Assembly (NCBI GenBank): GCA_034520365.1
Contig: JAXHNP010000006.1
Coordinates: 985,001-1,049,000 of the forward strand
Direction: 5' to 3'
DNA: 64,000 nucleotides
Source: Desulfobacterales bacterium
GTDB lineage: Bacteria; Desulfobacterota; Desulfobacteria; Desulfobacterales; Desulfosalsimonadaceae
Positions 34,587 through 60,224 of the stretch are shown piece after piece. A model generated the notes under the pieces. The model searched no databases. It saw only the letters and a list, made by a program, of their open reading frames with translations, and had not been told where the DNA came from. The position numbers and the translations under genes were made by a program. How positions within the stretch are numbered: position 1 is the first letter of the stretch; the number at the start of each line of letters is the position of its first letter.

Positions 34587-34823
34587 AGGCATAGAATTAA
34601 AGGGGAAAATAATTGTGCGTTGATCTCTGCCCAAATTGTAAATTTAAAATTTATAATGTGTTTATTTTTGAAACAATTGTCATTCTTTTGCAACAGGTTG
34701 TTTCAAAATTAAACAAATCAAGTTTTGGTCGAATCATTATTAAGAAATTTCACTTAAACCGTTTAAGCATTACCCGATGCATTAGAAAGAGTTATAGGAT
34801 TTAATTGTCGGTTTTGTTTATTT

Positions 34824-34839
34824 TGGAATAATCATTGCA
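34824..34839 (+). promoter_or_regulatory. Sigma54-type promoter of island unit C
   Basis: TTGGAATAATCATTGCA: GG at 34825-34826, GC at 34837-34838, with a perfect TTGCA -12 box. The start would be near 34850, about 100 bases before the amidohydrolase. A perfect inverted repeat CTTAAA-CCG-TTTAAG at 34753-34767, roughly 60-70 bases upstream of the -24 box, is a candidate activator site. Confidence 0.6.
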
Positions 34840-34950
34840 ATGAAATAAACAGCGTTTTTTAGTGAGTTCAGTATTCTTAACTATGATTTAATTTTTTATC
34901 CATTAATAGCGTAATCCCAATTCAAGCAACTTATTTAAAGGAGGAGTGAC

Positions 34951-36318
34951 ATGTACGACAAAATAATTCGTAACGGACATATCGTTACCCATTCCGATGT
35001 TTTTGAGGCCGACCTAGCTATTGAAGATGGAAAGATAGCGGCAATAGGACAGAATTTGGGGGAAGCAAAAGAAACGATTGATGCCGAAGGAAAATTTGTG
35101 ATGCCTGGTTGTATCGACCCTCATGTGCATATGGGAATCTTTCTTGACTATGAGGGGGATGTCAAATCGGAGACGGCGGCAGCCGCAGCCGGCGGAACGA
35201 CTACAATTATCCAGTATTTAATCGGTAAAGAGTCCCAGGAGGAAGTATATAACACCATGAAAGCGCCAATCAGTAAATTGGCTTCTTGTGATGTGGCATT
35301 TCATGGTGTTTTGCTTTTTGATTCACATCTTGATGAAATTGAAAAAATGGCCGGCTTGGGGGTTCATTCAAATAAGTTCCTAATGGCTTATAAGGGAAAG
35401 GCCGGAGAGCAGATCGGTCTTCAAGGTGTGAATATCGACAGCGGTTTCCTCTATAAAGCATTTGAAAAAATGAAGGCTATTGGCGGGATACCAATGATCC
35501 ATGCCGAACATATTGAACTTGTCTTTGCCGTTGAAGAAAAGTTCAAGGACCAGAATACATTAAAAACGTGGGCAGATGCACGGCCAAACGCAGCCGAGGA
35601 AATAGATCTGTACATCGGCTGCCGGTTGGCGGAGGAGGTTGGGTGCCCCATATATCAGGTTCACAGCAGCATAGGCAACGCAGCAGATATTGCTAGTGAA
35701 TTTAGGCAAAGGGGGAACAAAGTTTATGTGGAAACCTGCCCTCACTACTTAGTTACAAATTATTACGGTGAAAATCTTGAATCTCCTTTGCTTGGAAAAA
35801 TCAATCCTCCCATACGCAGTCCACAGGACCAGGAAAATATCTGGAAAGGTGTTATTAATGGAAGATTAGATACAATAGGAACAGATAGCGCAAATAATAT
35901 GTATAAGGATAAATGGGCGGATGGCAATATTTGGAACATGCAACTTGATTATTCCAGTGTAGAATATTTGTTGCCACTGTTGCTTTCCGAGGGGGTAAAT
36001 AAAGGAAGACTGTCTTTAACTGATGTAGTTAGGATGACATCTTACAATACCAGTAAAATATTCGGCCTCTATCCAAGAAAAGGAATAATGGCTATAGGCG
36101 CAGATGCGGATTTAGTAATTGTCGACCTTGAAAAAAAGAAGACCGTCAAAGCGTCGGAACGCCATTCAATTTCCGATTACAGCCTTTATGAAGGATGGGA
36201 AATTAAAGGTTTGCCGGTTAGAACAATTATACGAGGTCAAAATGTGGTAGAAAATGAAAAGCTGGTCGCAGAACCGGGATTAGGCCAGTTTGTTCCAACA
36301 GAACCTGCACATAAATAA
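34951..36318 (+). CDS. Hydantoinase/dihydropyrimidinase-family cyclic amidohydrolase
   Basis: A 455-residue binuclear metal amidohydrolase that opens cyclic amides (dihydropyrimidines, hydantoins, imides). Metal ligands are all in place: DPHVHMG (His58, His60), the carboxylated lysine in FLMAYKGK (Lys148), HAEH (His184), QVHSS (His238) and TIGTDSANN (Asp312). The last motif is unusual, since GTDHAP is common and the His is replaced by Ser. Length fits the family (about 460). The ATG has AAAGGAGGAGTGAC upstream. As first gene of unit C, followed by an amidase, it likely opens the imported ring. Imide versus ureide substrate cannot be decided. Confidence 0.9.
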   Translation: MYDKIIRNGHIVTHSDVFEADLAIEDGKIAAIGQNLGEAKETIDAEGKFVMPGCIDPHVHMGIFLDYEGDVKSETAAAAAGGTTTIIQYLIGKESQEEVYNTMKAPISKLASCDVAFHGVLLFDSHLDEIEKMAGLGVHSNKFLMAYKGKAGEQIGLQGVNIDSGFLYKAFEKMKAIGGIPMIHAEHIELVFAVEEKFKDQNTLKTWADARPNAAEEIDLYIGCRLAEEVGCPIYQVHSSIGNAADIASEFRQRGNKVYVETCPHYLVTNYYGENLESPLLGKINPPIRSPQDQENIWKGVINGRLDTIGTDSANNMYKDKWADGNIWNMQLDYSSVEYLLPLLLSEGVNKGRLSLTDVVRMTSYNTSKIFGLYPRKGIMAIGADADLVIVDLEKKKTVKASERHSISDYSLYEGWEIKGLPVRTIIRGQNVVENEKLVAEPGLGQFVPTEPAHK

Positions 36319-36346
36319 TTTAGTATCCAAAAAAGGGGGTGTGCAT

Positions 36347-37000
36347 ATGACTAATGGAAGGGAAGAAATATACCAAAAATCTAAACTCGGGGGAGGTATC
36401 GGATTCGGTAAACGCCCGGCTATTATTGTTATAGATCTACAAAAAGGCTTTACTCTTCCTGAAGCTACAGCCGGCGCGGACATGACCACAACCGTGGAAA
36501 ATGTAAAAAAGCTGACTGATGCGTCCAGAGAAAAAAATGTTAAGGTTTACTATACCAGAGTGGGATATGAGAAAGATGGTGTGGATTTAGGCCCATTTGG
36601 ACATAAAGCAATGGTGTTGAGGGATTTCACAAGAGATCATTGGTTTTATGAAATGGATGAAAGGCTGGATATACGGGAGTCGGATATCGTACTTGAAAAG
36701 CATTGGCCGTCGGCTTTTTTTGGCACCCATCTTCTGCAGATGTTTATTGCTACGCATATCGACACTGTGATTATAACAGGCTGTACAACAGCCGGTTGCG
36801 TTTACGCAAGCGCCTTAGACTCCTGCTCTTATGGTTTCAGAACTATTGTTGCAGAAGAGTGTGTGGCTGACAGAGCCGAAGACACCCATAACATGTTTCT
36901 CTGGAATATGGGGCAAAAATATGCAGACGTGATGAGTGTTAAGGAGGTGATAGCGGAGATAGGGAAGGTTGAGAAAATGGAGTATGATTTGCTCTGGTAA
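36347..37000 (+). CDS. Isochorismatase-family amidohydrolase (N-carbamoyl or maleamate type)
   Basis: A 217-residue cysteine hydrolase. The Asp-Lys-Cys triad is visible: Asp30 in VIDLQKGF, Lys118 in VLEKHWPSAF, and Cys151 in TGCTTAGCVYASALD. This TxGCV motif is typical of N-carbamoylsarcosine amidase and maleamate amidase, rather than isochorismatase itself. It would hydrolyse the linear amide or carbamoyl product of the preceding amidohydrolase, releasing ammonia (and CO2 if carbamoyl). The ATG at 36347 is supported by AAGGGGGTG. It lies 28 bases after the amidohydrolase. Confidence 0.87.
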   Translation: MTNGREEIYQKSKLGGGIGFGKRPAIIVIDLQKGFTLPEATAGADMTTTVENVKKLTDASREKNVKVYYTRVGYEKDGVDLGPFGHKAMVLRDFTRDHWFYEMDERLDIRESDIVLEKHWPSAFFGTHLLQMFIATHIDTVIITGCTTAGCVYASALDSCSYGFRTIVAEECVADRAEDTHNMFLWNMGQKYADVMSVKEVIAEIGKVEKMEYDLLW

Positions 37001-43511: not shown

Positions 43512-43521
43512 GGAGGACTTC

Positions 43522-46773: not shown

Positions 46774-47517
46774 ATGAGCGATCTAAAGCCTCTATCGGAG
46801 AAACATAATTGCGCTTACTGCCCTATTATCCGCAAAATTTGCCGGGTGCCGGATGGAAAAGGACCTTCGACTTGTCCGACCATCAAGCAAAAAGAAATTC
46901 TGAAAAGGGCAATAGAGCATTATGAGAATGACGAGGAAATAATGGAATTTGCCCGTCAGGCATCTGTCCAGGAAGGCGAATGCTATGCAGACCGGAAACC
47001 AGGGCCTTATACAATGCGGCCCCAGAAAACCCGGGTCGAAGAAATAATAGAATTTGCCAATAAAATGAAATATCGCAGGATAGGGATTGCATTTTGCGGC
47101 GGGGTTACCTATGAAGCCTCGATTTTATCCGAAATTCTGGAAAAGCATGGGTTGGATGTTGTTGCAGTCTCCTGCAAAGTGGGCAGTGTGCCAAAGGAAA
47201 AAATAGGAATACTAGAAGACCAGAAAATTCGTATAGGCGAGTATGAGCCAATGTGCAATCCCATAGGGCAGGCTGAATTGTTAAACAGCGCCAACCTTGA
47301 CTTAACGGTAATGCTTGGATTGTGCGTCGGGCATGACAGTCTTTTTCTTAAGTATATTAAAGGGTTTACCACAGTAATGGCGGTTAAGGACCGGGTTACC
47401 GGGCATAATCCAATGGCGGCCTTATATACAGCCCATTCATATTATCAACGGTTAAAGAAACTTGAGATGGGCAGTGATGCGGAAATGAAATCCAGGATGG
47501 TATCTAGGAATAAATAA
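46774..47517 (+). CDS. DUF1847 cysteine-rich protein
   Basis: A 247-residue protein of the DUF1847 family. It has N-terminal metal-binding-type cysteines (NCAYCPIIRKICRVPDGKG, in part, with a further Cys in STCPT), GIAFCGGVTYEAS and a late LGLCVGHDSLFLKYIKG. The family is metal-binding by composition and occurs in anaerobes; no reaction is established. It lies between the racemase-fold gene and the CoA ligase, so a role in the pathway (e.g. metal or cofactor handling, or a reductase step) is inference only. Confidence 0.8.
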   Translation: MSDLKPLSEKHNCAYCPIIRKICRVPDGKGPSTCPTIKQKEILKRAIEHYENDEEIMEFARQASVQEGECYADRKPGPYTMRPQKTRVEEIIEFANKMKYRRIGIAFCGGVTYEASILSEILEKHGLDVVAVSCKVGSVPKEKIGILEDQKIRIGEYEPMCNPIGQAELLNSANLDLTVMLGLCVGHDSLFLKYIKGFTTVMAVKDRVTGHNPMAALYTAHSYYQRLKKLEMGSDAEMKSRMVSRNK

Positions 47518-47531: not shown

Positions 47532-48791
47532 ATGTCTAGAGTTTACGAATATCAGGGGAAAGAGGCTCTGGAGAAATCCGGTGTCGCAATACCTGCTCAT
47601 GGGGTTGGCTCAACGCCTGAGGAGGTTGAAAAAATAGCAAAAAAAATTGGTCGCCCAGTGGTGGTTAAGGCTCAGGTATTTGTAACCGGAAGAGCCGAAG
47701 CCGGAGGCATTGAGTTTGCAGACACACCGGAGGCGGCAAAGCAAGGTGCGGAAAAGATTTTTGCTAGTAAAATTAAGGGGTTGAGCGTTAAAAAGGTTCT
47801 CGTGGAAGAAAAGTTAAACATTGAAAAGGAGTTTTATGCGGCAGTAGTTGTGGATAACTCCCAAAAGATAAAAGGCCCGGTGTTGATCTTCAGCACCCAG
47901 GGAGGCACAGGCATTGAGGAGGTAGCCGCCAAAAACCCGGAAAGGGTCGTGCGTGTGCCGATTGATATATTAAACGGCCTCTCGCTTTCTCAGGTTTCTT
48001 CAACGCTTGATAAAATGGGGGTGGATGATCCCCACCAGAAACTCAGTAATGCCGTATGCTCCCTGTATAAGGCGTTTCGTGATTATGACTGCCGCAATAT
48101 CGAAATGAATCCGTTTGTGCTGACCCGGGAAGGCGACGTATACGCCGCAGACTGCCATATGAATTTGGATGATAACTCTGTGTTCAGACATCCCGAATTT
48201 GGAATAATAGTGCCCCGCGATCTCGACAGAGAGCCAACTGAACTTGAACGGCTTGCATGGGACTATATCGAGGAAGGAGACTACCGGGGTACAGGTTATA
48301 TAACCCAGTTAATAACCGATTTTAAAAAAGACGAAATTTATGTTGGTTTCCACGGTATAGGCGGCGGCGGTTCAATGCTGGGGGCGGCCGCTCTTCTCAG
48401 GCGGGGTATGAAAATCGCCAATTTTGCCGATACCAGCGGTGATCCACCTGCAAGTAAAATATATAAAGTAATCAAGGCGATATTCGCGCAGCCAATCTCA
48501 GCATATGTTATGACCGGCGCAGTCCTGGCCAATCAGGAGCAATGGTATCACGCATTTGCGATTGTTAAGGCTTTACGGGAAGAGTTGGCAAACAAGCCCG
48601 GTTTTCCAGTGGTCATACTTTTGGCGGGAAACAAAGAGGTCGAATCGCACAAGATCATCAGCGACGGGCTGAAGGATATGGATATCCGCTTTGAATTATA
48701 CGGGCGGGATTATATTTACAAGTCAAATTATATCGGCGAAAGGGCGGAGATTTTGATCAAAGAGTATCTCCAGTCAAAAACCAGGCACTAA
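47532..48791 (+). CDS. ATP-grasp acyl-CoA synthetase beta subunit (SucC/malate-CoA ligase-like)
   Basis: A 419-residue ATP-grasp subunit of a succinyl-CoA-synthetase-like enzyme, which couples ATP hydrolysis with CoA thioester formation on a dicarboxylate. Family segments: RVYEYQGKEALEKSGV at the N-terminus, VVVKAQVFVTGRAEAGGIEF (about 45-64), EMNPFVLTREGDVYAADCH (about 197-215), and the CoA-ligase domain with ANFADTSGDPPASKIYKVI (about 296-314). It differs from typical SucC in the glycine-rich FHGIGGGGSML stretch. Together with the alpha subunit at 49152, separated by a small gene, it likely activates the hydration product (malate, citramalate or similar). Confidence 0.85.
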   Translation: MSRVYEYQGKEALEKSGVAIPAHGVGSTPEEVEKIAKKIGRPVVVKAQVFVTGRAEAGGIEFADTPEAAKQGAEKIFASKIKGLSVKKVLVEEKLNIEKEFYAAVVVDNSQKIKGPVLIFSTQGGTGIEEVAAKNPERVVRVPIDILNGLSLSQVSSTLDKMGVDDPHQKLSNAVCSLYKAFRDYDCRNIEMNPFVLTREGDVYAADCHMNLDDNSVFRHPEFGIIVPRDLDREPTELERLAWDYIEEGDYRGTGYITQLITDFKKDEIYVGFHGIGGGGSMLGAAALLRRGMKIANFADTSGDPPASKIYKVIKAIFAQPISAYVMTGAVLANQEQWYHAFAIVKALREELANKPGFPVVILLAGNKEVESHKIISDGLKDMDIRFELYGRDYIYKSNYIGERAEILIKEYLQSKTRH

Positions 48792-48805
48792 ATAAGGATG
48801 AAGTT

Positions 48806-49129
48806 ATGTCAGATGAAAAACTTGTATTCGAAACGCTAACTACGACGGTAACTATTGATTACACTAAATGCGAGCCCGCTTTGAAAAATACTTCGAACCC
48901 CGATTGCGGGTTTGCCTGCGTCAAGGCAGACCGGCTATATGATCGAAATATACTCAAGATTGAGGACAACCGGCCGGTGCTTGCTGTCTCTCCGGAAGAA
49001 GCAAAAAAACGATCCAATGAATCGCTTTCGTGGGAGTATGCCGATCACATTACAGGAAACCGGGCCATTGAAATAAAAGTGCATTTTCCGGGGTTAGGGA
49101 AGTATCGGGAAAAAATGGATCTTAATTAA
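48806..49129 (+). CDS. Small cysteine-containing protein between the CoA-ligase subunits
   Basis: A 107-residue protein with three clustered cysteines (YTKCEPALK, then DCGFACVKADRLY) and no membrane segment or signal peptide. The layout is reminiscent of a ferredoxin-like half-site but with too few cysteines for an ordinary [4Fe-4S]. It sits 14 bases after the beta subunit gene and 22 bases before the alpha subunit gene, which normally adjoin. I do not recognise a family. It may be an extra subunit of the ligase. Confidence 0.65.
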   Translation: MSDEKLVFETLTTTVTIDYTKCEPALKNTSNPDCGFACVKADRLYDRNILKIEDNRPVLAVSPEEAKKRSNESLSWEYADHITGNRAIEIKVHFPGLGKYREKMDLN

Positions 49130-49151
49130 TTATTTTTAGGAGGATAAGAAG

Positions 49152-50054
49152 TTGCCTATCATCATAGAGAAAAATACAAAAGTGATGATCCAGGGGATTA
49201 CCGGACGGTTCGGGCAGTTTATAGCGCGAAATATGCTTGATACCGGTACAAACCTGGTTGCTGGTGTAACTCCCGGACGCGGCGGGAGCAAAGTTTGGGA
49301 TATTCCCGTATATAACTCGGTCCAAGAGGCATGGGATGCCCATGGTCCCATATCCTCAACTGTTATTCTGGTTCCGGGACCGGGTGCCAAGCAAGCCGTG
49401 GTTGAAGCAGTTGAGTTTAAATTTGAGACCATTTTGATGGAAGTCGAGAGGGTGCCTTTGCACGATGCGCTTGAATGTGTGGCTATGTGCAGCAAAGCGG
49501 GGATAAGGCTGCTGGGGCCGGGTTCAGCGGGGCTGGTTTCTCCCGGCCATGGCTCTTTAGGCGTTTTCGGTTCGCCGGAAGAGCTGGCGCGGGTGGCTTT
49601 TGTTCCGGGGCGCGTGGGTGTGATCTCCCGAAGCGGCGGCCAGACCAGTACTCTTGCCTTCAATGTCTGTAGTGCCGGTTTTGGGATCAGCACTGCGCTT
49701 CATATCGGAACCGAGCAGGTCATGGGCACAACCCTGCCTGAAGTGCTGCCGCTGTTTGAAGCTGACGAGGGCACCGATGCACTTGTTTATTATGGTGAAA
49801 TCGGCGGCGTAATGGAGGAAGAGGCTGCCGAGGTGATAAAAGAGAAAAAGTTCACCAAGCCTTTTATCGGCTATATAGCGGGTAGAGGGCTTCCCGCAGG
49901 CATGCGATTTTCGCATGCAAGCGCTATAATCGAAGGCGGCAAAGGCACTGCGGAGGGCAAGGTCAAAGCCCTCCAGGAATGCGGCGCATATGTGGTTGAG
50001 GCCCCTGAAGACATTGGGGCGACCTTACAGAAAATACTAAATCCACAGGAGTAA
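49152..50054 (+). CDS. Acyl-CoA synthetase alpha subunit (SucD-like)
   Basis: A 300-residue CoA-binding alpha subunit. Seen: N-terminal Rossmann segment with VMIQGITGRFGQF (about residues 11-23), GVISRSGGQTSTLAF (about 157-171), and the phosphohistidine loop MRFSHASAIIEGGKGTAEGK (His near residue 255), so the catalytic His is preserved. The start is TTG at 49152 with an AGGAGG leader (49139-49144). It pairs with the beta subunit at 47532. The 4-base gap to the CitE-like gene and the hydratase after it outline a hydration-activation-cleavage module. Confidence 0.88.
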   Translation: MPIIIEKNTKVMIQGITGRFGQFIARNMLDTGTNLVAGVTPGRGGSKVWDIPVYNSVQEAWDAHGPISSTVILVPGPGAKQAVVEAVEFKFETILMEVERVPLHDALECVAMCSKAGIRLLGPGSAGLVSPGHGSLGVFGSPEELARVAFVPGRVGVISRSGGQTSTLAFNVCSAGFGISTALHIGTEQVMGTTLPEVLPLFEADEGTDALVYYGEIGGVMEEEAAEVIKEKKFTKPFIGYIAGRGLPAGMRFSHASAIIEGGKGTAEGKVKALQECGAYVVEAPEDIGATLQKILNPQE

Positions 50055-50058
50055 AAAA

Positions 50059-50994
50059 ATGTCAAACGAAAGAATATGGAGGAGTTTGCTCTTTATTCCT
50101 GCCAATAGTTGGAGAATGCTTAATAAGGCCGCCGTTGAACAGGAAGATGGAGTGGTTATAGATCTTGAAGACGCATGTCCGGTAGGAGAGCGTGAAACAG
50201 GGAGGATTTTTGCCCGGGATATCGTTCCGACGCTTAAAAAATACGGCGTGGATGTCCTGGTACGGGTCAATTCACTGGAAACCGGGGTCACCGAAGAAGA
50301 CTTGGCCATTGTTGTGACCGAGGGGCTGGACGGAATAATGCTCCCAAAATCCGAGTCCGCTGAAGATATTCGAAAACTGGATGATTATTTGACCAAGGTA
50401 GAAAAGGAAAAAGGAATATCCCGTGAGGTCGCGATTCTTCCCCTTATTGAATCCCCGAAAGGTATTTTAAATGCCCATGAAATTGGCAGCGCCAGTAAAC
50501 GGGTGGCAGGGCTGGCGTTCGGAGCTGGGGATTACATGTCGTCTTTGGGCGAAGGCTTTACAATCGCCAAGCTGACCCCGGATGAGTATTTTCCGATATT
50601 GTCTTATCCAAGATCAGTAATTTCAATTGTCGCCACAACCCTTGGCGTTTTGCCGATCGACACCCCTTATTTCGGTCTGCTTATTGATGTTGAAGGTTTG
50701 GAGCAGGAAACAAGTCGAGCAAAATTGATGGGATTTAAGGGAAAGCTTTTGACGCACCCCAGGCATGTCGGGCCGGTAAATAAGGTTTTTTCGCCATCTG
50801 AAGAAGACGTTGAATACGGCAGGAAAGTCGTGGAAGCATATGAGGAAGCTGCTGCAGGAGGCAGGGGAACTGCCGTATTGGATGGGAAAATGATCGATTA
50901 TGCCATGCATAAGATGGGAAAAGATCTTCTTGCCAAAGCCGATGCCATCAGGAAAAAGGCGGAATTAAAGGCAAAAGTTATGCCATATGTTTAA
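50059..50994 (+). CDS. HpcH/HpaI-CitE-type CoA-ester lyase (malyl/citramalyl-CoA lyase-like)
   Basis: A 311-residue class of aldolase-like lyase that splits beta-hydroxyacyl-CoA esters such as malyl-CoA and citramalyl-CoA. Visible sites: SLLFIPANSWRML, VIDLEDACP (about 33-41), VRVNSLET (about 69-76), PLIESPKGI (Glu of the Mg site, about 131-139), AFGAGDYM (about 153-160) and GFKGKLLTHPRHV. With the CoA ligase it would give acetyl- or propionyl-CoA plus a keto acid or glyoxylate. Direct position after the ligase genes supports this. The exact substrate is unknown. Confidence 0.86.
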   Translation: MSNERIWRSLLFIPANSWRMLNKAAVEQEDGVVIDLEDACPVGERETGRIFARDIVPTLKKYGVDVLVRVNSLETGVTEEDLAIVVTEGLDGIMLPKSESAEDIRKLDDYLTKVEKEKGISREVAILPLIESPKGILNAHEIGSASKRVAGLAFGAGDYMSSLGEGFTIAKLTPDEYFPILSYPRSVISIVATTLGVLPIDTPYFGLLIDVEGLEQETSRAKLMGFKGKLLTHPRHVGPVNKVFSPSEEDVEYGRKVVEAYEEAAAGGRGTAVLDGKMIDYAMHKMGKDLLAKADAIRKKAELKAKVMPYV

Positions 50995-51003
50995 AGGGGA
51001 AGG

Positions 51004-51924
51004 GTGATGATATCGCAGAAAACGTTAGAGAATAGCATTTATGACACAATAAGAAGAGGGTCCTGCTCTATTTCGCCGGATGTAGAGGGGGCTTTTGAGG
51101 ATGCGATAAAAATTGAGACATCTGAAATTTCAAAAAAGGGATTTGATGCAACCTTAGACAGCCTGAAAAAGTGCCGTGCGCGAGACAGTTTGGCATGCCC
51201 TGATACCGGATGGCCCCTGTTTTTTATTAAAATGGGAAATGATGCCCAAATTGAGGGAGGGCTTCCTGCTATGGAGGAAACGGCGCGTCAAATGGTGATA
51301 AAAGCCACTCAGGACGGGTATTTGAGAAAAACTATGAAGCACCCCCTTACCGGTGAGGATCCGGGGGGGAACGTGGGCATGAATATGCCCAATTTTTCTT
51401 ATAAATTTATTCCAGGAGACTCGTTTCAGATTACCTATGTGGCAAAAGGCGGCGGATCCGAATGTTTCGGCGGAAGCCGTCTACGGATTGTCGCTTTTGC
51501 CGATGGCTTGGTCGGCATTAAAAAAGCCGTGGTTGACTGGTACATTGCCGCCGCCAGAGCCGGCGCAATTTGTCCGCCTTCTGTGTTGGGGGTGGGTATA
51601 GGCGGGACCGGAGATGTGTGCATGCATCTGGCCAAAAAAGCCGCAACCCTTCGATTGATTGGCTCAAGGCATCCTGAGCCCATGATTGCGGATCTGGAAA
51701 ACGAATTGTACGAAGGCATAAACTCTCTTGGTATTGGCGCAATGGGCTCCGGCGGGAATAAGTCCGTATTCGCTGTAAATGTAGAGTATTCCTTAACTCA
51801 CATAGCCGGTATTGCAGTGGGCATTAGTGCGAATTGCTGGATTGCCAGGAGGGCTACCACCAGGATAAATTCCGATGGAAGCATTGAAAAATTGGATGAT
51901 CCGAATTGGTTTAATGGGAGATAA
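51004..51924 (+). CDS. Class I fumarase/tartrate-dehydratase-type hydratase, alpha subunit (set 2)
   Basis: A 306-residue second alpha subunit, distinct from set 1 at 24059. The three cluster cysteines are seen in SLACPDTGWPL (about residue 64), GAICPPSVLGVGIGGT (about 195-210) and ISANCWIARR near the end. It has a specific insert around VKAT-GYLRKTMKHPLTGED (in part). It follows the CitE-like gene by 9 bases and precedes its own beta subunit by 2. The hydration product would feed the ligase and lyase upstream, so a mesaconase/alkylfumarate hydratase role is attractive (inference). Confidence 0.86.
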   Translation: MMISQKTLENSIYDTIRRGSCSISPDVEGAFEDAIKIETSEISKKGFDATLDSLKKCRARDSLACPDTGWPLFFIKMGNDAQIEGGLPAMEETARQMVIKATQDGYLRKTMKHPLTGEDPGGNVGMNMPNFSYKFIPGDSFQITYVAKGGGSECFGGSRLRIVAFADGLVGIKKAVVDWYIAAARAGAICPPSVLGVGIGGTGDVCMHLAKKAATLRLIGSRHPEPMIADLENELYEGINSLGIGAMGSGGNKSVFAVNVEYSLTHIAGIAVGISANCWIARRATTRINSDGSIEKLDDPNWFNGR

Positions 51925-51926
51925 AT

Positions 51927-52550
51927 ATGACTGAATACCATCTGCAAGTCCCTTTGAAGGACGAAGACATAAAATCTTTAAGACTTGGGGACATCATTTA
52001 TTTTTCCGGCACAGCCTGGACCTGTCGCTCCAAACTTCAGCGATATATCTTCGATGAAGGCCATGAACTGCCATTTTCCACCGAAGATAAAAATTTGCTG
52101 ATTCATGTTGGTCCCGTAGTCATTGATGAAAACGGTAAGTGGAAGCTGGTTTCGTTTATGCCGACCTCAAGCATCCGGTTTGAAAAGTGGGGGGAGAAAT
52201 CCATCCGCAAATTCGGACTAAAAGCTATTGTCGGCAAGACCACCATGGGGGAAAATACCGCCAGAGCAATGAAAGAACTGGGTTGTATTCATGCCACGCC
52301 TATAGGTGTGCCCGTGCAGGCTTTTCTGGATCGAATAACGGTAAAGGATGTTTATTTGTTTGATGAACTCGGTAGTATTGAAGCTGCATGGATTTTGGAA
52401 TTAAAGGACCTGGGCCCTTTTTTGGTGGATATCGATACGACCGGCCGCAATCATTTTGACAGGCTGGATAGTGTTATCGATGAAAATCGCAAAAAAGTCT
52501 ATGAAAAATTAGGCATTCCTGAAGATTTTGAGTATACGAAGCTTTACTAG
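51927..52550 (+). CDS. Fumarase-type hydratase beta subunit, divergent (set 2)
   Basis: A 207-residue TtdB/FumA-C-type subunit, longer than set 1 (184). Several canonical motifs are altered: the TARDAAHKR stretch reads TCRSKLQRY, GPTxSxRM reads MPTSSIRFEKW, and GKG reads GKTTMG. The overall strand order and position beside the alpha gene are still clear. The changes lie in segments that line the substrate site in class I fumarase, so a substrate other than fumarate, probably larger, is likely (inference). It ends 59 bases before the reductase gene. Confidence 0.8.
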   Translation: MTEYHLQVPLKDEDIKSLRLGDIIYFSGTAWTCRSKLQRYIFDEGHELPFSTEDKNLLIHVGPVVIDENGKWKLVSFMPTSSIRFEKWGEKSIRKFGLKAIVGKTTMGENTARAMKELGCIHATPIGVPVQAFLDRITVKDVYLFDELGSIEAAWILELKDLGPFLVDIDTTGRNHFDRLDSVIDENRKKVYEKLGIPEDFEYTKLY

Positions 52551-52609
52551 AAATACAACCAAAAGCCTATGATGAAAAATACAATTTATAGATTATGGAG
52601 AGGAAAAAA

Positions 52610-54376
52610 ATGCAAGATCTTAATGTACCGATAAAGCAAACCGATGTTCTTGTGATGGGAGCAGGCGGTGCTGGAATGCGAGCGGCGATCGCTGCTGCTG
52701 AAAAAGGCGCCCGGGTTGTTATCGCAGCCAAGGATTTGTTTGGCCACAGTGGCTGTACTCCTGTGGCAAAAGGCGGATATGCCGGCATGCAAGGGCCGGG
52801 AGATGATTGGAAACTCCATTTTGAAGATACGGTTCGAGGTGGAGGCGGAATCAACAATCAAAAGCTTGTTGAAATTATGGCCAAACAGGCCAGAGAACGG
52901 CTACTTGAATTAGAGGAATGGGGGGCCGCGTTTGACAGGGATAAGGACGGTAGTATTTATTTGCGTAAATTTGGCGGGCATTCCGCCCCCCGCAGTTGTA
53001 TCAGCGGCGATGTTACCGGCCGTGAAATGATCTGGGCTTTAAAGCGCAAATGCTGGGAACACGAATTGATTGAGGTGGCAGATGAAACTTACATTAATCA
53101 GCTCTTGGTAAATGATGGAGAAATTTCAGGGGCTGTTGGAGTTCAGCTGCAAACCGGAAAAATTGTCGCATATGAGTGCCCGGTGGTGATTCTGGCAAAC
53201 GGGGGTTCCGGCCGGTTGTGGCCGATAACCTTTGCCACAAAGGGAAAATGCGGCGACGGTTTGCGTCTGGCCTATGAGGCAGGCGCGGAACTGGTGGATA
53301 TGGAATTTTTTCAGATTCATCCCACTGGATGGAAATGGCCGCCGGCTGTCATTGGACGGGTTATCAGCGAGGGGGTTAGAGCAGATGGGGGCCAGTTGTT
53401 AAATAAGAACATGGAAAGATTCATGTGGAAGTATGACCCCGAGAGGTTGGAACTGGCTTGTCGGGACTATGTTTCGCGGTGCATATATAAGGAGGTCAAT
53501 GAAGGGCGAGGCACTGAGCATGGAGGCGTTTGGCTGTCGATCACCCATTTGCCGCCTGAACATATCGAAAGAAAACTGGCGGCATTCATGGCAACTGGCC
53601 AAGTTGCCGAGATAGACGTCAGAAAGCAGGCTATAGAAATATTCCCCGAGCATCATTATCAAAATGGCGGCGTAAAAATTGATGAAAACGCCAGAACCAC
53701 CGTAACCGGCCTTTACGCGGCCGGCGAGGCAGCCGGGGGTGTGCACGGCGGAAACAGGCTGGGCACCAATTCTTTGGCGGATTTAATGGTGTTTGGCAAA
53801 ATATCAGGGGAACATGGGGCTGAATATGCCAAAAATGTTAAACGGCCAGAGATCGTTAAAACTCAGCTGGAAGAAGAAGTAGCAGCTATTCGTAACCCTC
53901 TGGGAAGAGATTCGGATGTAAGTCCCTACGAACTTTCAAAAAAACTGCATGATGTCATGTGGGAAGAAATGCATATTGAACGGAGCGGAAAAGGCTTGAG
54001 CAGATGTCTGGAAGTTACCGCTGAGGTTGCAGAGCAGTTTAAGAATGTGTCTATTCCCGGCAAATCTTTATATTTAAATGACGCATGGACAACAGCTATG
54101 GAAGTTCGCTCCAGAATGGTGGTGGGCGAGATCATGACCAGAGCCTCCATGTACCGCACGGAAAGCCGCGCGGCGTTGTTTAGGAACGATTACCCGCATG
54201 TAGATCGAAAACAATGGGATAAAAATGTGATCGTCAAGATGGAAAACGGCGAAATGAAGCTGGAAACCTCTCCCGTTGTGGTAACGATTTGGCCCACTGA
54301 AAAGATTGACTTGGTCAAATTTCCAGTACCAGGCGAAGAACATGAACCCGGCGCGAGGGTTTTTTGTGAAGTCTGA
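52610..54376 (+). CDS. Fumarate reductase/succinate dehydrogenase flavoprotein, TfrA-like
   Basis: A 588-residue flavoprotein subunit. The FAD motif is VLVMGAGGAGMRAAIAAAEK (about 13-32). The site that carries covalent FAD in SdhA (SHTVAAQGG) reads SGCTPVAKGG, so the linking His appears to be replaced by Cys and FAD is probably non-covalent. QIHPTGW (about 230), GGVHGGNRLGTNSLADLMVFG (in part; about 380-400) and a C-terminal helical domain are as in the family. No transmembrane anchor gene follows, suggesting a soluble enzyme. ATG 52610 follows GGAGAGGA. It would reduce or oxidise a succinate/fumarate-type pair, possibly alkylated. Confidence 0.87.
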   Translation: MQDLNVPIKQTDVLVMGAGGAGMRAAIAAAEKGARVVIAAKDLFGHSGCTPVAKGGYAGMQGPGDDWKLHFEDTVRGGGGINNQKLVEIMAKQARERLLELEEWGAAFDRDKDGSIYLRKFGGHSAPRSCISGDVTGREMIWALKRKCWEHELIEVADETYINQLLVNDGEISGAVGVQLQTGKIVAYECPVVILANGGSGRLWPITFATKGKCGDGLRLAYEAGAELVDMEFFQIHPTGWKWPPAVIGRVISEGVRADGGQLLNKNMERFMWKYDPERLELACRDYVSRCIYKEVNEGRGTEHGGVWLSITHLPPEHIERKLAAFMATGQVAEIDVRKQAIEIFPEHHYQNGGVKIDENARTTVTGLYAAGEAAGGVHGGNRLGTNSLADLMVFGKISGEHGAEYAKNVKRPEIVKTQLEEEVAAIRNPLGRDSDVSPYELSKKLHDVMWEEMHIERSGKGLSRCLEVTAEVAEQFKNVSIPGKSLYLNDAWTTAMEVRSRMVVGEIMTRASMYRTESRAALFRNDYPHVDRKQWDKNVIVKMENGEMKLETSPVVVTIWPTEKIDLVKFPVPGEEHEPGARVFCEV

Positions 54377-54449: not shown

Positions 54450-55981
54450 ATGTCAGAAAATATAAATATCAAAATATACCGGTATGATCCGGAGAAAGAT
54501 GCGGAAGGCGGGCTTGAGCAATACTCGCTGTCCAAGCTGCCGGGGATGAGAATACTCGGGGCCTTGAAAGCCCTCAACGATCACGGCCATAACATTTCAT
54601 ACCGGTATAATTGCGAGGAATGGGAATGCGGGTCGTGCGCTGTTTACATCAACGGCAAAAAATCGGTTCTGGCCTGTAAGACCGAAGTTCAAGATGGAAT
54701 GGTTATAGAACCTGTACCGGATTTAAAGGTATTGAAAGATTTAATTGTTGATAGAGAAAAGGAGAATAAGAAGCAGGCCGAGTTATATAAAGTCCCCGGA
54801 ACCAAAATTGGATCGGAATTGAGCTACGAGGTTCAAAACAAAATGTGGAAAGCCATCACCTGCATGGAGTGCGGCGTCTGCCTATCTTCATGTCCGGTTT
54901 TACACCCTACAGGCGGTTCATACACATATAGCGGTCCTGAGTTTATGGTTCAGCTGTTTAGAACGGAGCTTGATACGCGGGTAGATAAAAACTCTCTTGA
55001 GACAAGCAAAAAAGAGGGTATCTGGGAGTGTACCGCCTGCCGGCATTGCGTTGAAAATTGTCCGCAGGACATTCCCATTCTTGATCAGATTCTATATCTG
55101 CGTAACAAAATCATCGATGAGAAAGGAAAACTTGTACCGCCCAGATCCGGGACCTGAATGAGCGGCTTTTTAAAACCAAAAATCCATACGGCAAACCCAA
55201 AAAGAGAAGATCAGATTGGGCCGAGGGGCTCAATGTCCCCGATATTCAGGCCGGTCAGCAGGACATTTTGTTCTTTGTGGGAAGCGAGCAATGCTATAAC
55301 CCGCGCGATCAGGAAACCGCAAGAGCCCTGGTCGATATTTTTCGGAATATAAAGATTGATTTCGGCACACTTGGCAACGTTGAGGCTGATGCAGGTGAGT
55401 ACGCCTTGTCCACTGGCGAGGAGGCGCTTTTTGAGGAACTTGCGGAATTAAATATAAAATCGATTCAAAAAGCCAAATTCAAGGCTGTCGTAACGGTCTC
55501 CCCGCATGATTACCACGTTATGAAAAACGAATATCCCAAACTTGGGGGTGATTTTAATGTGCTTCACTTTACTGAGTTTCTTAATGAGATGATTCAGGAC
55601 AACAAGCTGAAGTTGGGGCAAAATTTCAACAAAAAAGTCGTATATCATGATCCCTGCTTTTTGGGCAGATATAATAAGATGTTTGATGCGCCTAGAAATG
55701 TTCTTAAGGCTATACCCGGCCTGAATTTGGTTGAAATGAGTAAAATTCGTGAAGATTCAGAGTGTTGCGGCGGCGGCGGTGGCGGGGCCTTTATCGATAT
55801 TCCCGCAGGCGAGCGGATATCGGAGCGCAGGGTGGCACAAGCACTTGAAACAGGCGCCGAGATTCTGGCAGTTGCCTGCCCGTTTTGTATGGCCATGTTT
55901 GAAGACGCGGTTAAGGCGCTGAGATGCGAAGACAAGATTGAAGTAAAAAATATTGCTGAAATTGTTCGCGATGCGCTTTAG
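54450..55981 (+). pseudogene. TfrB-like Fe-S subunit (SdhB-HdrB fusion) interrupted by a frameshift
   Basis: First frame (54450-55157) has an SdhB-type part: [2Fe-2S] ligands in NCEEWECGSCAVYINGKK and [4Fe-4S] motifs CMECGVCLSSCPV and CTACRHCVENCPQ. It ends early at 55155 with LVPPRSGT-stop. Another frame (from about 55145, IRDLNERLFKTKNPYGKPKK) continues without stop to 55981 with HdrB-type CCG motifs (HDPCFLGRYN, SECCGGGGGGAF, ACPFCMAMF). One extra base near 55143-55150 rejoins them into about 510 residues. This SdhB-HdrB order is that of thiol:fumarate reductase B. The cause may be sequencing error or a true mutation; a functional protein is likely in the former case. Confidence 0.84.
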
Positions 55982-56143: not shown

Positions 56144-57334
56144 ATGGATAAAAGCAATAAAATACTGCTTCTCACCACAGCATGCCATGGTGTTAATCAC
56201 ATGTTCTGGGAGGCTATCGGCCCCCTGATGCCATTTTTGATTGCGGCATACAGCCTCACTCATACCCAGGCGGGAGAACTGGGCCTGGTCTATATACTGA
56301 TTTACGGTCTTATGAATTACCCTTCAGGATATTTGTCAGATAAGTGGGGGAAGCGAATTTTTATACTGCTTTTTCTGCTTATCTCTTCGCTTTCTTTTCT
56401 CATGATCGTGTTTTTAGACATTTATTGGCAGCTACTGCTGATATTCGCATTGGCTGGTTTTGGCGGCGGACTATATCATCCTTCCGGGACGGCGATACTT
56501 TCCAATACCTTTACAGCCAAATTAAGAGGCAGATCTTTGGGCCTGCACGCCTCCGGCGGAGCAATGGGGATCCTTTTTGCTTATCTGATTGTCAGCGTGT
56601 TTAGCAAGGCATTGGGTTGGAAATTTGCGGTAATTTGTATGGCTGGCATCGGGTTTTTATTGCTTCTTTATTTTGTTTTATTCGCATGGCGGGATTTGGA
56701 GGGAAAAGATGAGCAATTTCAGGACGCTTATTCCGAAGCAACCCAGGAAGCTGCCCCTTTCGGTTTTTTTAAAGTAATTAGGAGCATTCCTCACCTTCTA
56801 CTCATTTATGCCATGGTCATGTTTTTATTTAAAGGGGCGTATGTATGGGTGCCGACTTATCTAAAAGAAGCATACAACTTGGAAGTTGCAACAGCAGTGT
56901 CATTAACGATTATTCTGCCCGTGATGGGGTTGTTTAGCAATTATTTGATGGGAATGTTGTCGGATTCAGTCGGCAGGAGAAAGAGCCTGATTTTTGTTTT
57001 TTCAATGCTGGTTGTCTGCCTTGTGAGTATGTATATCGGATTTAAACCGATATTGATTCCGTTGCTTGTGGTATTCGGTTTTTTTATCAACTCCTTTTCC
57101 GGCATTATCAACGCGTTTGCAAGAGATTTACTGCCTCCTGATGTCATGGGGATGGCTTTTGGCATTATATTTACATTTTCCATCTGCATCAGTTCGCTGG
57201 CGCCATATATTATGGGGATTATATCGGATAAGTTTTCTTTGTCCGAGAGTATGTTATTTTTGGCGTTTATCGCTGTTGCAGGAGTGGTGATTACCCTGCT
57301 TATTCCGGCCAAACCCGTGGAGGCAATTTCTTGA
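56144..57334 (+). CDS. MFS transporter (fosmidomycin-resistance/FsrA-like group)
   Basis: A 396-residue, 12-TM major facilitator. The start MDKSNKILLLTTACHGVNHM and first loop LVYILIYGLMNYPSGYLSDKWGKR (in part, with the G-x-L-x-D-x-x-G-x-R/K MFS loop motif) identify the family; the halves are joined by a hydrophilic linker around residue 190-205 (DEQFQDAYSEATQE). It probably moves a small organic acid in or out. It begins the last gene group of the island, downstream of the inverted repeat, and is followed 56 bases later by the PrpD pair. Confidence 0.85.
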   Translation: MDKSNKILLLTTACHGVNHMFWEAIGPLMPFLIAAYSLTHTQAGELGLVYILIYGLMNYPSGYLSDKWGKRIFILLFLLISSLSFLMIVFLDIYWQLLLIFALAGFGGGLYHPSGTAILSNTFTAKLRGRSLGLHASGGAMGILFAYLIVSVFSKALGWKFAVICMAGIGFLLLLYFVLFAWRDLEGKDEQFQDAYSEATQEAAPFGFFKVIRSIPHLLLIYAMVMFLFKGAYVWVPTYLKEAYNLEVATAVSLTIILPVMGLFSNYLMGMLSDSVGRRKSLIFVFSMLVVCLVSMYIGFKPILIPLLVVFGFFINSFSGIINAFARDLLPPDVMGMAFGIIFTFSICISSLAPYIMGIISDKFSLSESMLFLAFIAVAGVVITLLIPAKPVEAIS

Positions 57335-57390: not shown

Positions 57391-58767
57391 ATGGACCCAA
57401 TTTTTAAATTCTCTGATAATATAGTGAAGACAAGGTATGATGATATTCCACAAGAGGCGGTTTTAGCAACCAAACGACAGCTTATGGACGCCATTGCCGC
57501 TGGAATTGCGGGAAGTTCGGCAGAATCGGTTAAAGAACTCTTCGATATTTTCACTGATTGGGGGGGGAAGCAGGAAAGCACTTTATGGGTCTTCGGCAAC
57601 AGGCTGCCGAGTGTTGCCGCCGCTCAAATCAATGCCACAATGGTACATTCAAGGGATTTTGACGACACACATGACAGAGCTGTTCTTCATCCCGGTGCCG
57701 TCACCGTCCCACCAGCGTTTGCATTGGGTGAAAGTCTTGGAAATGTCAGCGGTAAGGAGATTATAACCGCGGTGGCATTAGGCGTGGATCTCACCTCCAG
57801 GCTTTGCCTGGCCTGCACGAGCGATTATTTTGCAGGCGGATGGCATTACACGCCATTGCATGGAAGCCTGGGTGCAACGGCTGTGGCCGGCAAACTTCTT
57901 AATCTGGATCACGATAAACTTGTGCATGCATTTGGTATTGCCTACCACCAGGCAGCTGGAAATTTGCAGTGTGTTGATGACGGGGCATTGACAAAGCGAT
58001 GCGGACCGGGTTTTTCAGTCCGCAACGGAATTCTTTCAGCATTAATGGCAAAAAAGGGGATAACGGGCGCCCGCAATGTGCTAACCGGCAAAAGAGGGCT
58101 GTACCATCAATATCACCGTGGTTTTTTTAATGCCGAAAATCTTACGGACGCACTGGGAAAGAGATTTGAAGGTGTCAATGTCAGCATCAAGCCTTATCCC
58201 TGCTGCCGATATAATCACCCTGCTATCGATGCCGCTCTGCATTTGATGGATACCCATCAATTTTTACCATCTGCTATAGATTCCATTACTATTCATATCG
58301 GCCAGAGTGCTACCGGGCTTCTGGCTGAACCGCCGGAGATCAAGAAAAATCCACGGAATGCTGTTGATACCCAGTTCAGTATACCCTGGGCGGTTGCTGT
58401 GGTATTTGCTTACGGCAAGCTGAGCATCGGCAATTTTTCGGATGAAGCCACAAAAGATAAAAAAGTCCTGTCATTGAGTAATAAAGTCAATACTGTTACG
58501 GACAAGGATTTATCAGTGGCCGGAATTGAACCCTGCATTGTGACGGTGAAAACGCAGGGAGGTGAAACTTATACTAAAAGAGTGGATACCCCTTATGGAT
58601 CGCCGGATAACCCAATGTCGATTGATAACATATCTGAAAAATTAAGAAATGCCGTACCTTTTGGCGTAAAACAATTAGATGAGGCCCAAGTCGAAAAGCT
58701 TATCAAAATGGTCGCAGAATTCGATTCGGTTAAACGCATGGATATAATTGGCGAGATGTTGGGATAA
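57391..58767 (+). CDS. MmgE/PrpD family protein, copy 1
   Basis: A 458-residue protein of the MmgE/PrpD fold, whose known members include 2-methylcitrate dehydratase, cis-aconitate decarboxylase and iminodisuccinate epimerase. Family segments: AVLATKRQLMDAIAAGIAG, VHSRDFDDTHDRAVLHPGAV (in part; the D-F-D-D-T-H active-site segment, about 85-105), GWHYTPLHGSLGATAVAGKL (about 151-170) and KPYPCCRYNHPAIDAAL (about 268-284). All these are intact. It has AAGGGGGGGAAG before its ATG. It probably dehydrates, isomerises or epimerises a branched hydroxy acid; exact reaction unknown. Confidence 0.86.
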   Translation: MDPIFKFSDNIVKTRYDDIPQEAVLATKRQLMDAIAAGIAGSSAESVKELFDIFTDWGGKQESTLWVFGNRLPSVAAAQINATMVHSRDFDDTHDRAVLHPGAVTVPPAFALGESLGNVSGKEIITAVALGVDLTSRLCLACTSDYFAGGWHYTPLHGSLGATAVAGKLLNLDHDKLVHAFGIAYHQAAGNLQCVDDGALTKRCGPGFSVRNGILSALMAKKGITGARNVLTGKRGLYHQYHRGFFNAENLTDALGKRFEGVNVSIKPYPCCRYNHPAIDAALHLMDTHQFLPSAIDSITIHIGQSATGLLAEPPEIKKNPRNAVDTQFSIPWAVAVVFAYGKLSIGNFSDEATKDKKVLSLSNKVNTVTDKDLSVAGIEPCIVTVKTQGGETYTKRVDTPYGSPDNPMSIDNISEKLRNAVPFGVKQLDEAQVEKLIKMVAEFDSVKRMDIIGEMLG

Positions 58768-58829: not shown

Positions 58830-60224
58830 ATGGATGCGATTCAAACTATTTCAGAAAGATTTCAAGAAATTAACTATAGTGATTTGCCAGCTGAAGTGGT
58901 GGATGCCACCAAAAAGCTGATACTGGATACTATCTCAGTGGGTATTGGTGGCAGCAGCGCCGAGGGCATAAGTCAGCTCAAGCAGTTTTTTGTGGATCAG
59001 GGGGGTAAACAAGAAAGTTCTGTCTGGGTTTTCGGAGCCGGTTTGTCCTGTGCGGCTGCAGCTCAGCTGAATGCTACCATGGTTCATGCACTGGACTTTG
59101 ACGATACGCATGACCGGGCGGTGATTCATGTGGGGGTGACTTCCGTTCCGACGGCACTGGCCGTTGCAGAACAAACCGGAAATGTTGACGGGAAAAAATT
59201 TATAACCGCCGTGGCCCTTGGGGTTGAGATTGCCTCCAGGTTATGTCTGGCCAATACCGTTTCAATGTTTGAACGCGGATGGCACTATACCACATTGCAC
59301 GGAAATTTTAACGCAACAGCTGTTGCAGGTAAGTTGCTGGCCCTGGATGCAGAGGAAATGATAAACGCCTACGGGTTGGCATACCATCAGGCAAGCGGCA
59401 ATCTGCAGGGATTGATTGATGGTACATTGGCCAAGCGGCTGGGCCCGGGTTTTTCCGTTAGAAACGGCATCACAGCCGTCCAAATGGCGGCAAAGGGATT
59501 GACGGGTCCGCGCAACAGCCTGTCAGGCAAGCATGGGTTTTTTAATGTTTATCATCGCGGCGATTACGAGCCTCAAAAACTTGTTGACGGGCTTGGGGAA
59601 ACATACGAGGTGGCAAATTTGAGCTACAAGCCTTATCCCTGCTGCCGCGAAAATCATTTGTCCATTGACGCGGCCCTGCAGTTGCGGTCTGAGTTTGATA
59701 TTAAACCGGAAGACATTAAAGAGATCAATGTGAATATGAGCCGGGAAGGAATGGTTGCGGTATTTACGCCTTTGAGCGAGAAGCAGAATCCGAAAAATGT
59801 TGTTGATGCTCAGTTCAGTACCCCCTGGACCGTGGCCTGGGCTCTGGTCTATGGTTCGGTCGGCATCGAAGCTTTCAAGCCAGAGGCTATTTACGATGAA
59901 AAGGTCCTGGATTTATCCCGCAGGATAAATGCCGTGCCAGACGATTCCCTTTCGCAATTGGGGGTTAGCCCCACTATAGTTAACATAGCCACCAAAAACG
60001 GGCAAAATTATACCAAAAAAATAGAAATTGCTTACGGCTCTCCTGAAAATCCCATGACTATGCAGGATATGGCAAACAAGCTGAAAGCTTGCGCTGGAAA
60101 TGCGGCTGGGGTTTTCAGCGGTACGGAGATCGATGAGCTTTCCTCAATGTGCATGAACCTTGAAGATTTGAATGATGTGCGTGCTGTCACCCGCATCTTA
60201 TCCGCTCCGCAAACCCGGAGTTGA
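58830..60224 (+). CDS. MmgE/PrpD family protein, copy 2
   Basis: A 464-residue tandem paralogue of the preceding gene, clearly alike along its whole length (VHALDFDDTHDRAVIHVG, GWHYTTLHGNFNATAVAGKL, KPYPCCRENHLSIDAALQL). Differences near the active site include HVGVTSVPTA against HPGAVTVPPA and RENHLS against RYNHPA. The pair could form a heteromer or act on two stereoisomers. It starts 62 bases after copy 1 and is followed by a stress-protein gene. Confidence 0.86.
   Translation: MDAIQTISERFQEINYSDLPAEVVDATKKLILDTISVGIGGSSAEGISQLKQFFVDQGGKQESSVWVFGAGLSCAAAAQLNATMVHALDFDDTHDRAVIHVGVTSVPTALAVAEQTGNVDGKKFITAVALGVEIASRLCLANTVSMFERGWHYTTLHGNFNATAVAGKLLALDAEEMINAYGLAYHQASGNLQGLIDGTLAKRLGPGFSVRNGITAVQMAAKGLTGPRNSLSGKHGFFNVYHRGDYEPQKLVDGLGETYEVANLSYKPYPCCRENHLSIDAALQLRSEFDIKPEDIKEINVNMSREGMVAVFTPLSEKQNPKNVVDAQFSTPWTVAWALVYGSVGIEAFKPEAIYDEKVLDLSRRINAVPDDSLSQLGVSPTIVNIATKNGQNYTKKIEIAYGSPENPMTMQDMANKLKACAGNAAGVFSGTEIDELSSMCMNLEDLNDVRAVTRILSAPQTRS

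Follow-up and report, generated by a model that had tools for sequence, protein, structure and literature searches.

Which acid is activated and cleaved by a compact gene module of a Desulfobacterales bacterium (Desulfosalsimonadaceae) is the question raised by the 64,000-nucleotide stretch analysed here, referred to as the window (assembly GCA_034520365.1, contig JAXHNP010000006.1, positions 985,001 to 1,049,000 of the forward strand). The module comprises six genes on the + strand at window positions 47532-52550, separated by gaps of 14, 22, 4, 9 and 2 bases. An initial annotation, made from the letters alone, described these genes as adjacent SucC-like, small cysteine-containing, SucD-like, CitE-like and fumarase-like alpha and beta genes with gaps of 2-22 bases, and both the coordinates and the family assignments were confirmed. 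The answer that we favour with moderate confidence is that the module would break down an alkyl-substituted C4 dicarboxylate via cleavage of an alkylmalyl-coenzyme A (CoA) ester, with pyruvate being a more likely 2-oxo acid product than glyoxylate.

Gene order and predicted chemistry of the module

The first gene (47532..48791, +, 419 amino acids) encodes the predicted SucC-like subunit of a nucleotide-dependent acid-CoA ligase (Pfam ATP-grasp_2, 179 bits), while the third (49152..50054, +, 300 amino acids) encodes the SucD-like CoA-binding subunit, with the Pfam families CoA_binding and Ligase_CoA. Between them lies the gene for a small Cys protein (48806..49129, +, 107 amino acids), a candidate ferredoxin-like third part of the ligase that belongs to no Pfam family and has three Cys left. 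These genes are followed by one for a predicted CitE-like CoA-thioester C-C lyase (50059..50994, +, 311 amino acids; Pfam HpcH_HpaI, 133 bits) and by those for the divergent alpha (51004..51924, +, 306 amino acids; Pfam Fumerase, 224 bits) and beta (51927..52550, +, 207 amino acids; Pfam Fumerase_C, 78 bits) subunits of a class I fumarase-like hydratase. Only 44 bases separate the hydratase beta gene from that of a TfrA/SdhA-like flavoprotein (52595..54376, +; TfrA model, 565 bits), a candidate alkylsuccinate dehydrogenase or alkylfumarate reductase. A TfrB homologue comes next, split into an iron-sulfur protein corresponding to its N-terminal half (54450..55157, +; TfrB model positions 2-219) and a CCG-domain protein corresponding to its C-terminal half, which is a separate open reading frame (ORF) in another frame (55268..55981, +; TfrB positions 266-486). 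The series continues with an MFS transporter (56144..57334, +; Pfam) and two MmgE/PrpD family proteins, namely PrpD1 (57391..58767, +), a candidate alkylsuccinate epimerase whose best PDB match is IDS-epimerase (131.6 bits), and PrpD2 (58830..60224, +).

This arrangement is not due to chance, since the same order is found in a Dehalococcoidia locus (L031) and the ligase genes recur in all 33 loci that carry the Cys gene or domain. In L031, the order DUF1847-sucC-cys-sucD-citE-fumA2 includes a homologue of the DUF1847 gene located directly upstream of the SucC-like gene in the window (46774..47517, +), and the identities are 72, 72, 66, 80, 70 and 54 %, respectively, with the outermost genes (DUF1847 and fumA2) cut by contig ends.

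In the favoured reading, each reaction, as well as the order and direction of the reactions, is a prediction, whereas the genes with their families, the retained catalytic residues and the conserved cassette in its two contexts are direct observations. The PrpD-type enzymes would set the stereochemistry of an alkylsuccinate, which the Tfr-like enzyme would oxidise, yielding an alkylfumarate. Addition of water by the divergent class I hydratase would then produce an alkylmalate (e.g. citramalate or 2,3-dimethylmalate), the SucC/ferredoxin-like/SucD ligase would form its CoA ester at the expense of ATP or GTP, and the CitE-type lyase would split the alkylmalyl-CoA to give a 2-oxo acid and an acyl-CoA, namely acetyl- or propionyl-CoA. 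Propionyl-CoA could be routed through a methylmalonyl-CoA mutase family protein, for which the genome has a match of 787 bits.

The module is probably a dedicated set, because the genome (99.39 % complete, 8 contigs) has separate SucCD, succinate dehydrogenase (SDH) and canonical fumarase genes. A second SucC (270 bits) is encoded elsewhere, followed by a SucD above its cut-off (456 versus 336 bits) and accompanied by an SDH-type flavoprotein, and another contig encodes an SdhA above its cut-off (833 versus 727 bits). The canonical fumarase lies in the window itself (24041-25476) and scores 358 bits (alpha) and 190 bits (beta, 24922-25476) compared with 224 and 78 bits for the hydratase of the module. 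Among the two HpcH_HpaI matches in the genome, the CitE-like protein of the module is the sole clear member, the other match being weak (30 bits).

A cassette with two genomic contexts

The SucC-like, small Cys, SucD-like and CitE-like genes form a cassette that occurs in Archaea as well as in several bacterial phyla. A search with the small Cys protein among 395 genomes of the window's phylum gave matches in 22 genomes, including that of the window, at 24 places, while a contig scan with the SucC-like protein yielded 13 loci. At an E-value of 1e-60, and with those already known counted, 3 genomes were retrieved from 350 of the phylum of L031 and 6 from 250 of the phylum of L033, the genome of which is labelled Sulfolobales. 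All 33 loci that contain the Cys gene, or the corresponding domain, have homologues of sucC and sucD adjoining it on the same strand, and a citE homologue is present in 31, the exceptions being L048 and L065. The Cys domain is fused to SucC in five archaeal loci (L033, L034, L035, L088 and L089) and in L065 of the window's phylum, as well as, judged by eye, in L092. No relatives of the small Cys protein were found on plasmids or of the CitE-like lyase in viral contigs, and the 725 records obtained in a plasmid search with the PrpD of L033 were each below 60 % identity.

On the basis of the lyase and the gene context, the loci were assigned to class A (22 loci: L045-L064, L066 and L094) or class B (the window, L031-L035, L044 and L087-L089); lyase counts for class A refer to 21 sequences, as a lyase is missing from the 8 kb contig of L048. 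The counts for the two classes are separate from L036-L043 (8 of the 13 loci from the SucC-like scan, with SucC 30-39 % identical), from the lyase loci L067, L068, L069, L093 and L097 (in whose fetched DNA neither SucC nor SucD homologues were detected), from L065 and L092 (in whose fetched DNA CitE homologues were not detected), and from L090, L091 and L109. The ten class B lyases form one clade in the lyase tree (support 100/98); in the SucC tree, L091, from a contig without a lyase, falls among class B.

Three loci outside the two classes have arrangements of their own. In L065, genes for TfrA-like, TfrB-like, fumarase halves, fused SucC-Cys, SucD and citryl-CoA lyase proteins stand in a row that resembles part of the reverse tricarboxylic acid cycle. 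L109, a 7.8 kb contig, has CitE-like, SucC-like, SucD-like and SDH-like ORFs in the window's order, with no room for a Cys gene between sucC and sucD. By eye, the CitE-like gene of L067 lies among HemB-like and radical-SAM-like genes, and no SucC was detected there.

The two classes differ in their surroundings. GlcD/GlcE/GlcF-type homologues occur near 19 of the 22 class A loci (all except L049, L053 and L094) and near none of the nine class B loci other than the window, disregarding a match in L088 that is its TfrB-like protein, whereas a PrpD, TfrA/FAD or FumA homologue occurs near six of these nine (L031, L032, L033, L034, L044 and L088) and near none of the 22, although the loci are related, the flank lengths differ and the query proteins were taken from the window and these same loci. 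Fisher tests on both contrasts gave p values of 1e-4 and 1e-5 for loci that are not independent of one another. The Glc labels denote homology to three proteins of L052, of which the GlcD-like protein reaches 531 of the 568 bits of the GlcD cut-off, the GlcE-like protein matches the GlcD and GlcE models below both cut-offs, and the GlcF-like protein matches the TfrB model better than GlcF, so that 'glycolate oxidase' is a likely but unproven name for the class A genes. The model closest to a 2-hydroxyacid dehydrogenase of L059 is glyoxylate reductase (357 versus 455 bits). In view of the gene contexts of the two classes and these model scores, class A looks like a malyl-CoA route for glycolate and class B like something else; should this be true, the class A cassettes would be candidates for encoding the malyl-CoA step when glycolate is used anaerobically. 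A formyltransferase-like gene is also present in many class A loci, as are GntR-like and TRAP-like genes, which were assigned by clustering.

The PDB structures closest to the window lyase are malyl-CoA lyases and its best NCBIfam match is CitE, at 184 of the 443 bits needed. The catalytic residues of the Rhodobacter enzyme (E44, D45, R76, E141, D168 and D299) correspond to E37, D38, R69, E131, D158 and D280, and every one of the 37 aligned lyases retains them, the C-terminal Asp being present in all 36 sequences that extend to it (L053 is partial). Judged from these residues, the window protein is a member of the CitE/malyl-CoA lyase superfamily. At the site facing the beta-substituent, the ten class B lyases have Gly (3) or Ala (7), while all 21 class A lyases have Val. 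In the window lyase this is Gly157, located before the metal-binding Asp, which replaces the Ala of malyl-CoA lyases with a still smaller residue. The Ala was proposed to let propionyl-CoA bind, and Val was said to be just small enough to do so (PMC3832036). By this argument, the Gly or Ala suggests that class B lyases can take a beta-alkyl group and that class A is tighter, a difference only of degree because Val would still just admit propionyl-CoA. Regarding the Pro/Trp pair by the glyoxylate pocket of malyl-CoA lyases, whose positions were derived from a 26-residue spacing in the Rhodobacter sequence, the window lyase keeps Pro203 and has Leu230 in place of the Trp. Given that this Trp contacts the pyruvate methyl group in a haloarchaeal malate synthase (PMC3832036), pyruvate as the 2-oxo acid is allowed, though not proven, by its loss.

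The window SucC-like protein is closest in the PDB to Thermus SucC (197 bits), followed by other SucC chains and citryl-CoA synthetase (123 bits), and a model of the fused L088 relative gave the same picture, citryl-CoA synthetase again being among the matches. The SucC-like and SucD-like proteins remain below the NCBIfam cut-offs for SucC (219.6 versus 370 bits) and SucD (281 versus 336 bits), and the malate-CoA ligase beta model is matched with 150 of 604 bits. We take SHASAIIEGGKGTA in the SucD-like protein to be the motif of the phosphorylated His, and the assignment to the ADP/GDP-forming ligases is supported by sequence. In a phmmer alignment, the window has Leu-Leu where citryl-CoA synthetase has its Arg pair; the Arg in the C-terminal domain is kept in the canonical SucC of the genome, L065, L092 and L109, and is Leu or Ile in the window, L031, L044, L088, L059 and L090. 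This Arg presumably binds the acid, and its loss is as expected if another acid is the substrate. By the NCBIfam cut-offs and the Arg pair, respectively, the module is thus classified as neither SucCD, malate-CoA ligase or fumarase nor citryl-CoA synthetase.

An alignment of 34 sequences of the small Cys protein or domain showed a class A pattern of C..C..C..C followed by CxxCxxxC, with similar Cys in the archaeal sequences, whereas the window, L031 and L032 proteins have lost the second motif. With three Cys, the window protein does not have the motifs for two 4Fe-4S clusters and probably no longer carries two clusters; its relatives retain more Cys. Fer4 matches among the relatives are weak (best 23.2 bits, cut-off 27) and none was obtained for the window protein. 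Its predicted fold (pLDDT 86) had no significant match in Foldseek (best E 0.26), while ferredoxin-type domains headed the VIA-align list with Z up to 7.1, below the Z that would be convincing alone. Ferredoxin ancestry is likely from the Cys pattern and the predicted fold taken together. If the favoured reading is right, an iron-sulfur-type part in an acid-CoA ligase would be indicated, and no description of such a ligase was seen among the matches listed in literature searches.

The presumed free-acid enzymes and competing interpretations

The alpha subunit of the hydratase keeps three Cys (ACPDTG, AICPPS and NCWIARR), which we assume to be the 4Fe-4S cluster ligands, in surroundings that differ from those in the canonical fumarase of the window. 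It exceeds the cut-off of TIGR00722 (237 versus 101 bits), while the beta subunit falls below that of TIGR00723 (108 versus 145 bits); both are above the Pfam cut-offs and below those of the fumarase equivalog models (alpha 231 versus 276 bits, beta 123 versus 269 bits). Class I fumarases are reported to have given rise to mesaconases on several occasions (PMC4682846), and mesaconate can be hydrated by iron-dependent fumarases (PMC12290011, PMC4682846). In the TfrA-like protein, the active-site motifs of succinate dehydrogenase/fumarate reductase are preserved; like TfrB, it scores below the cut-off of its model (565 versus 718 bits for TfrA). PrpD1 keeps H86, D89, H100, H152, K202 and K267 of the dicarboxylate site of IDS-epimerase, and its Tyr146 is one place off the position of the catalytic Tyr, which is present in the PrpDs of the archaeal class B loci L033, L034 and L088. 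An MmgE/PrpD protein was shown to be an (S)-(R)-methylsuccinate isomerase, in clusters with a citramalyl-CoA lyase (PMC12290011), which is the best outside support for an alkylsuccinate.

Among the known systems closest to the module is the itaconate/methylsuccinate cluster of Pseudomonas and Cupriavidus (Ict, Ich, Ccl, Mcd and Msi; PMC12290011), with which it shares an MmgE/PrpD protein, a CitE-type lyase (there an (S)-citramalyl-CoA lyase) and a class I fumarase, in that cluster able to feed in mesaconate, with acetyl-CoA and pyruvate as the products. The window has a SucCD-type ligase, a Tfr-like flavoprotein and a hydratase of the free-acid type, whereas in the cluster a CoA transferase activates the acid, and an acyl-CoA dehydrogenase and itaconyl-CoA hydratase act on CoA esters (PMC12290011). 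By analogy, the module would work like the citramalate branch of that route, with the ligase replacing the CoA transferase. If the favoured reading is true, these are genes for the anaerobic use of branched C4 dicarboxylates, with activation, oxidation and hydration unlike the CoA-ester route of Pseudomonas. The tandem TfrA and TfrB homologues are shared with the coenzyme M/coenzyme B fumarate reductase TfrAB, from which the window differs by scores below both cut-offs and by the split of TfrB.

Several observations weigh against degradation of an alkylsuccinate by this route. The sequence itself fixes no substrate. The best NCBIfam model for the hydratase beta subunit is L(+)-tartrate dehydratase (144 versus 264 bits, below the cut-off), and therefore a hydroxylated acid is a possible substrate. 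The Trp of the lyase is Met or Leu in class A as well as in class B, and so does not separate pyruvate from glyoxylate. Cys occupies, in the TfrA-like protein, the position of the His that links flavin adenine dinucleotide (FAD) in two SDH-type flavoproteins of the genome; as covalent FAD is needed for succinate oxidation by homologues, the TfrA-like protein may reduce rather than oxidise its substrate. Its partner TfrB homologue is split over two ORFs in different frames, with the break at 55157-55268, which is either natural or an assembly error. In L032 and L034, the flavoproteins adjoining the cassette have an incomplete SDH active site, the catalytic Tyr is absent from PrpD2 (the six other site residues are the same) and from the three PrpDs of L044, and three of the nine class B loci (L035, L087 and L089) have no PrpD, Tfr or FumA homologue in the fetched flanks.

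Two proposals of the initial annotation are affected. That a hydratase, a ligase and a lyase turn an alkylfumarate into an acyl-CoA and a 2-oxo acid agrees with the protein families and the catalytic residues, which would fit more than one acid and either pyruvate or glyoxylate. Entry of an alkylsuccinate via the Tfr-like pair gains from the two MmgE/PrpD genes and the small residue of the lyase site, but loses from the absence of the FAD-linking His, given which the enzyme may work in either direction. The ferredoxin-like nature of the small Cys protein, the glycolate-oxidase-type context of the cassette and the missing His go beyond what the initial annotation described.

Other substrates have to be weighed against an alkyl-substituted acid. 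The cassette might handle unsubstituted malate, with malyl-CoA being split into acetyl-CoA and glyoxylate or formed from them, in the manner of the serine cycle and of anaerobic glycolate/glyoxylate metabolism. In keeping with this, the nearest lyase structures are malyl-CoA lyases, the ligases of both classes have a common motif in place of the Arg, most class A loci (19 of 22) adjoin glycolate-oxidase-type homologues such as the L052 GlcD-like protein (531 versus 568 bits), and a malyl-CoA route of glyoxylate fermentation has been reported for Syntrophobotulus (PMC8092247). The window, however, belongs to the other lyase clade, has Gly rather than Val at the beta-substituent site and contains PrpD genes, and no GlcD-type FAD oxidase family was detected among the window genes scanned, which makes plain malate unlikely, though worth keeping in mind. 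The serine cycle malate-CoA ligase and malyl-CoA lyase likewise combine a SucCD-type ligase with a lyase of the CitE superfamily; the window differs from that pair in the extra ferredoxin-like part and low score (150 of 604 bits) of its ligase and in the missing malyl-CoA lyase Trp. Citrate cleavage by a citryl-CoA synthetase and citryl-CoA lyase pair would agree with CitE as the best model for the lyase and with a weak match of the SucC-like C-terminus to the citrate-binding domain of ATP citrate lyase (23.8 bits, cut-off 26.8). Relatives point the same way, since the L109 ligase passes that cut-off (30.3 bits) beside a CitE-like lyase 40 % identical to that of the window, and L065 adjoins a citrate-synthase-type citryl-CoA lyase (293 bits, cut-off 212), which makes it probable that some members of the wider ligase family are citryl-CoA synthetases. 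The window shares with citryl-CoA synthetase and ATP citrate lyase the ligase superfamily, but its cleavage partner is CitE-like, the Arg pair is Leu-Leu and the Arg of L065, L092, L109 and canonical SucC is lost; moreover, the fumarase-type hydratase would have no role and the lyase site would admit a beta-alkyl group, so that citrate is a very unlikely substrate.

A different direction or pathway could also be envisaged. The module might act as an electron sink, with an acyl-CoA and a 2-oxo acid being condensed, the ligase yielding ATP, the acid being dehydrated and the Tfr-like enzyme reducing the alkylfumarate. SucCD-type ligases are reversible, the missing FAD-linking His of the TfrA-like protein would suit reduction, and the aldol reaction of malyl-CoA lyases is also reversible (PMC3832036). 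The formation of citramalyl-CoA from pyruvate requires a high pyruvate excess in known lyases (PMC3832036), however, and PrpD epimerases, transporters and hydrolase-rich surroundings fit uptake and breakdown better, which renders the reverse direction quite unlikely. As for glutamate fermentation over methylaspartate, in which the hydratase would be a mesaconase and the ligase and lyase would stand in for citramalate lyase, the action of class I mesaconases in the methylaspartate pathway (PMC4682846) offers a precedent, but it is scarcely credible here given that no glutamate mutase E family match was found in the 99 % complete genome, a negative whose control gave a match in only 1 of 14 genomes, below the cut-off.

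Returning to the breakdown of an alkylsuccinate, a wider proposal is tentatively put forward as a possibility. A three-part SucC/ferredoxin-like/SucD ligase for substituted malates, together with a CitE-type lyase, might be common to bacteria and Archaea and might complete an anaerobic alkylsuccinate pathway in which the free acid is epimerised, oxidised and hydrated before a single nucleotide-dependent activation, with the window version being fed by cyclic imides, e.g. alkylmaleimides, via the OYE, hydantoinase-type and amidase-type genes located upstream.

Upstream and neighbouring genes

The possible entry genes lie at 29554..36997 (+) and encode two OYE-type reductases, a phosphoenolpyruvate (PEP)-mutase/isocitrate-lyase-type protein, a hydantoinase-type amidohydrolase, whose best PDB match is D-hydantoinase (252 bits), and an isochorismatase-type hydrolase. 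We infer a link between these genes and the module from the shared strand and from L044, in which the cassette is surrounded by an amidohydrolase, three PrpD genes and an FAD protein; that the ultimate substrate might be a cyclic imide is a guess. The best NCBIfam model for the first OYE-type reductase is bilirubin reductase (432 versus 750 bits) and, being below the cut-off, this match was not used as a sign of a tetrapyrrole substrate. The PEP-mutase/isocitrate-lyase-type gene (33579-34453) is broken by a frame change near 34041, which is a real loss or an assembly error; its family includes a CoA-independent dimethylmalate lyase.

The selected ORFs of 24041-63409 are all on the + strand, except for one of 82 amino acids (29054-29302), and sigma-54-type activators are located at 27013 and 62018. 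Genes for DUF1302, DUF1329, YCF48-like and MMPL/RND proteins stand in a row at 37078-43511, an outer-membrane set often seen with hydrophobic substrates. NCBIfam gave no names for 43468-44772, 45914-46663 and 46774-47517, the first of which encodes a protein of 434 amino acids that has no Pfam or NCBIfam match and, as an impression only, resembles nitroreductase-type flavoproteins.

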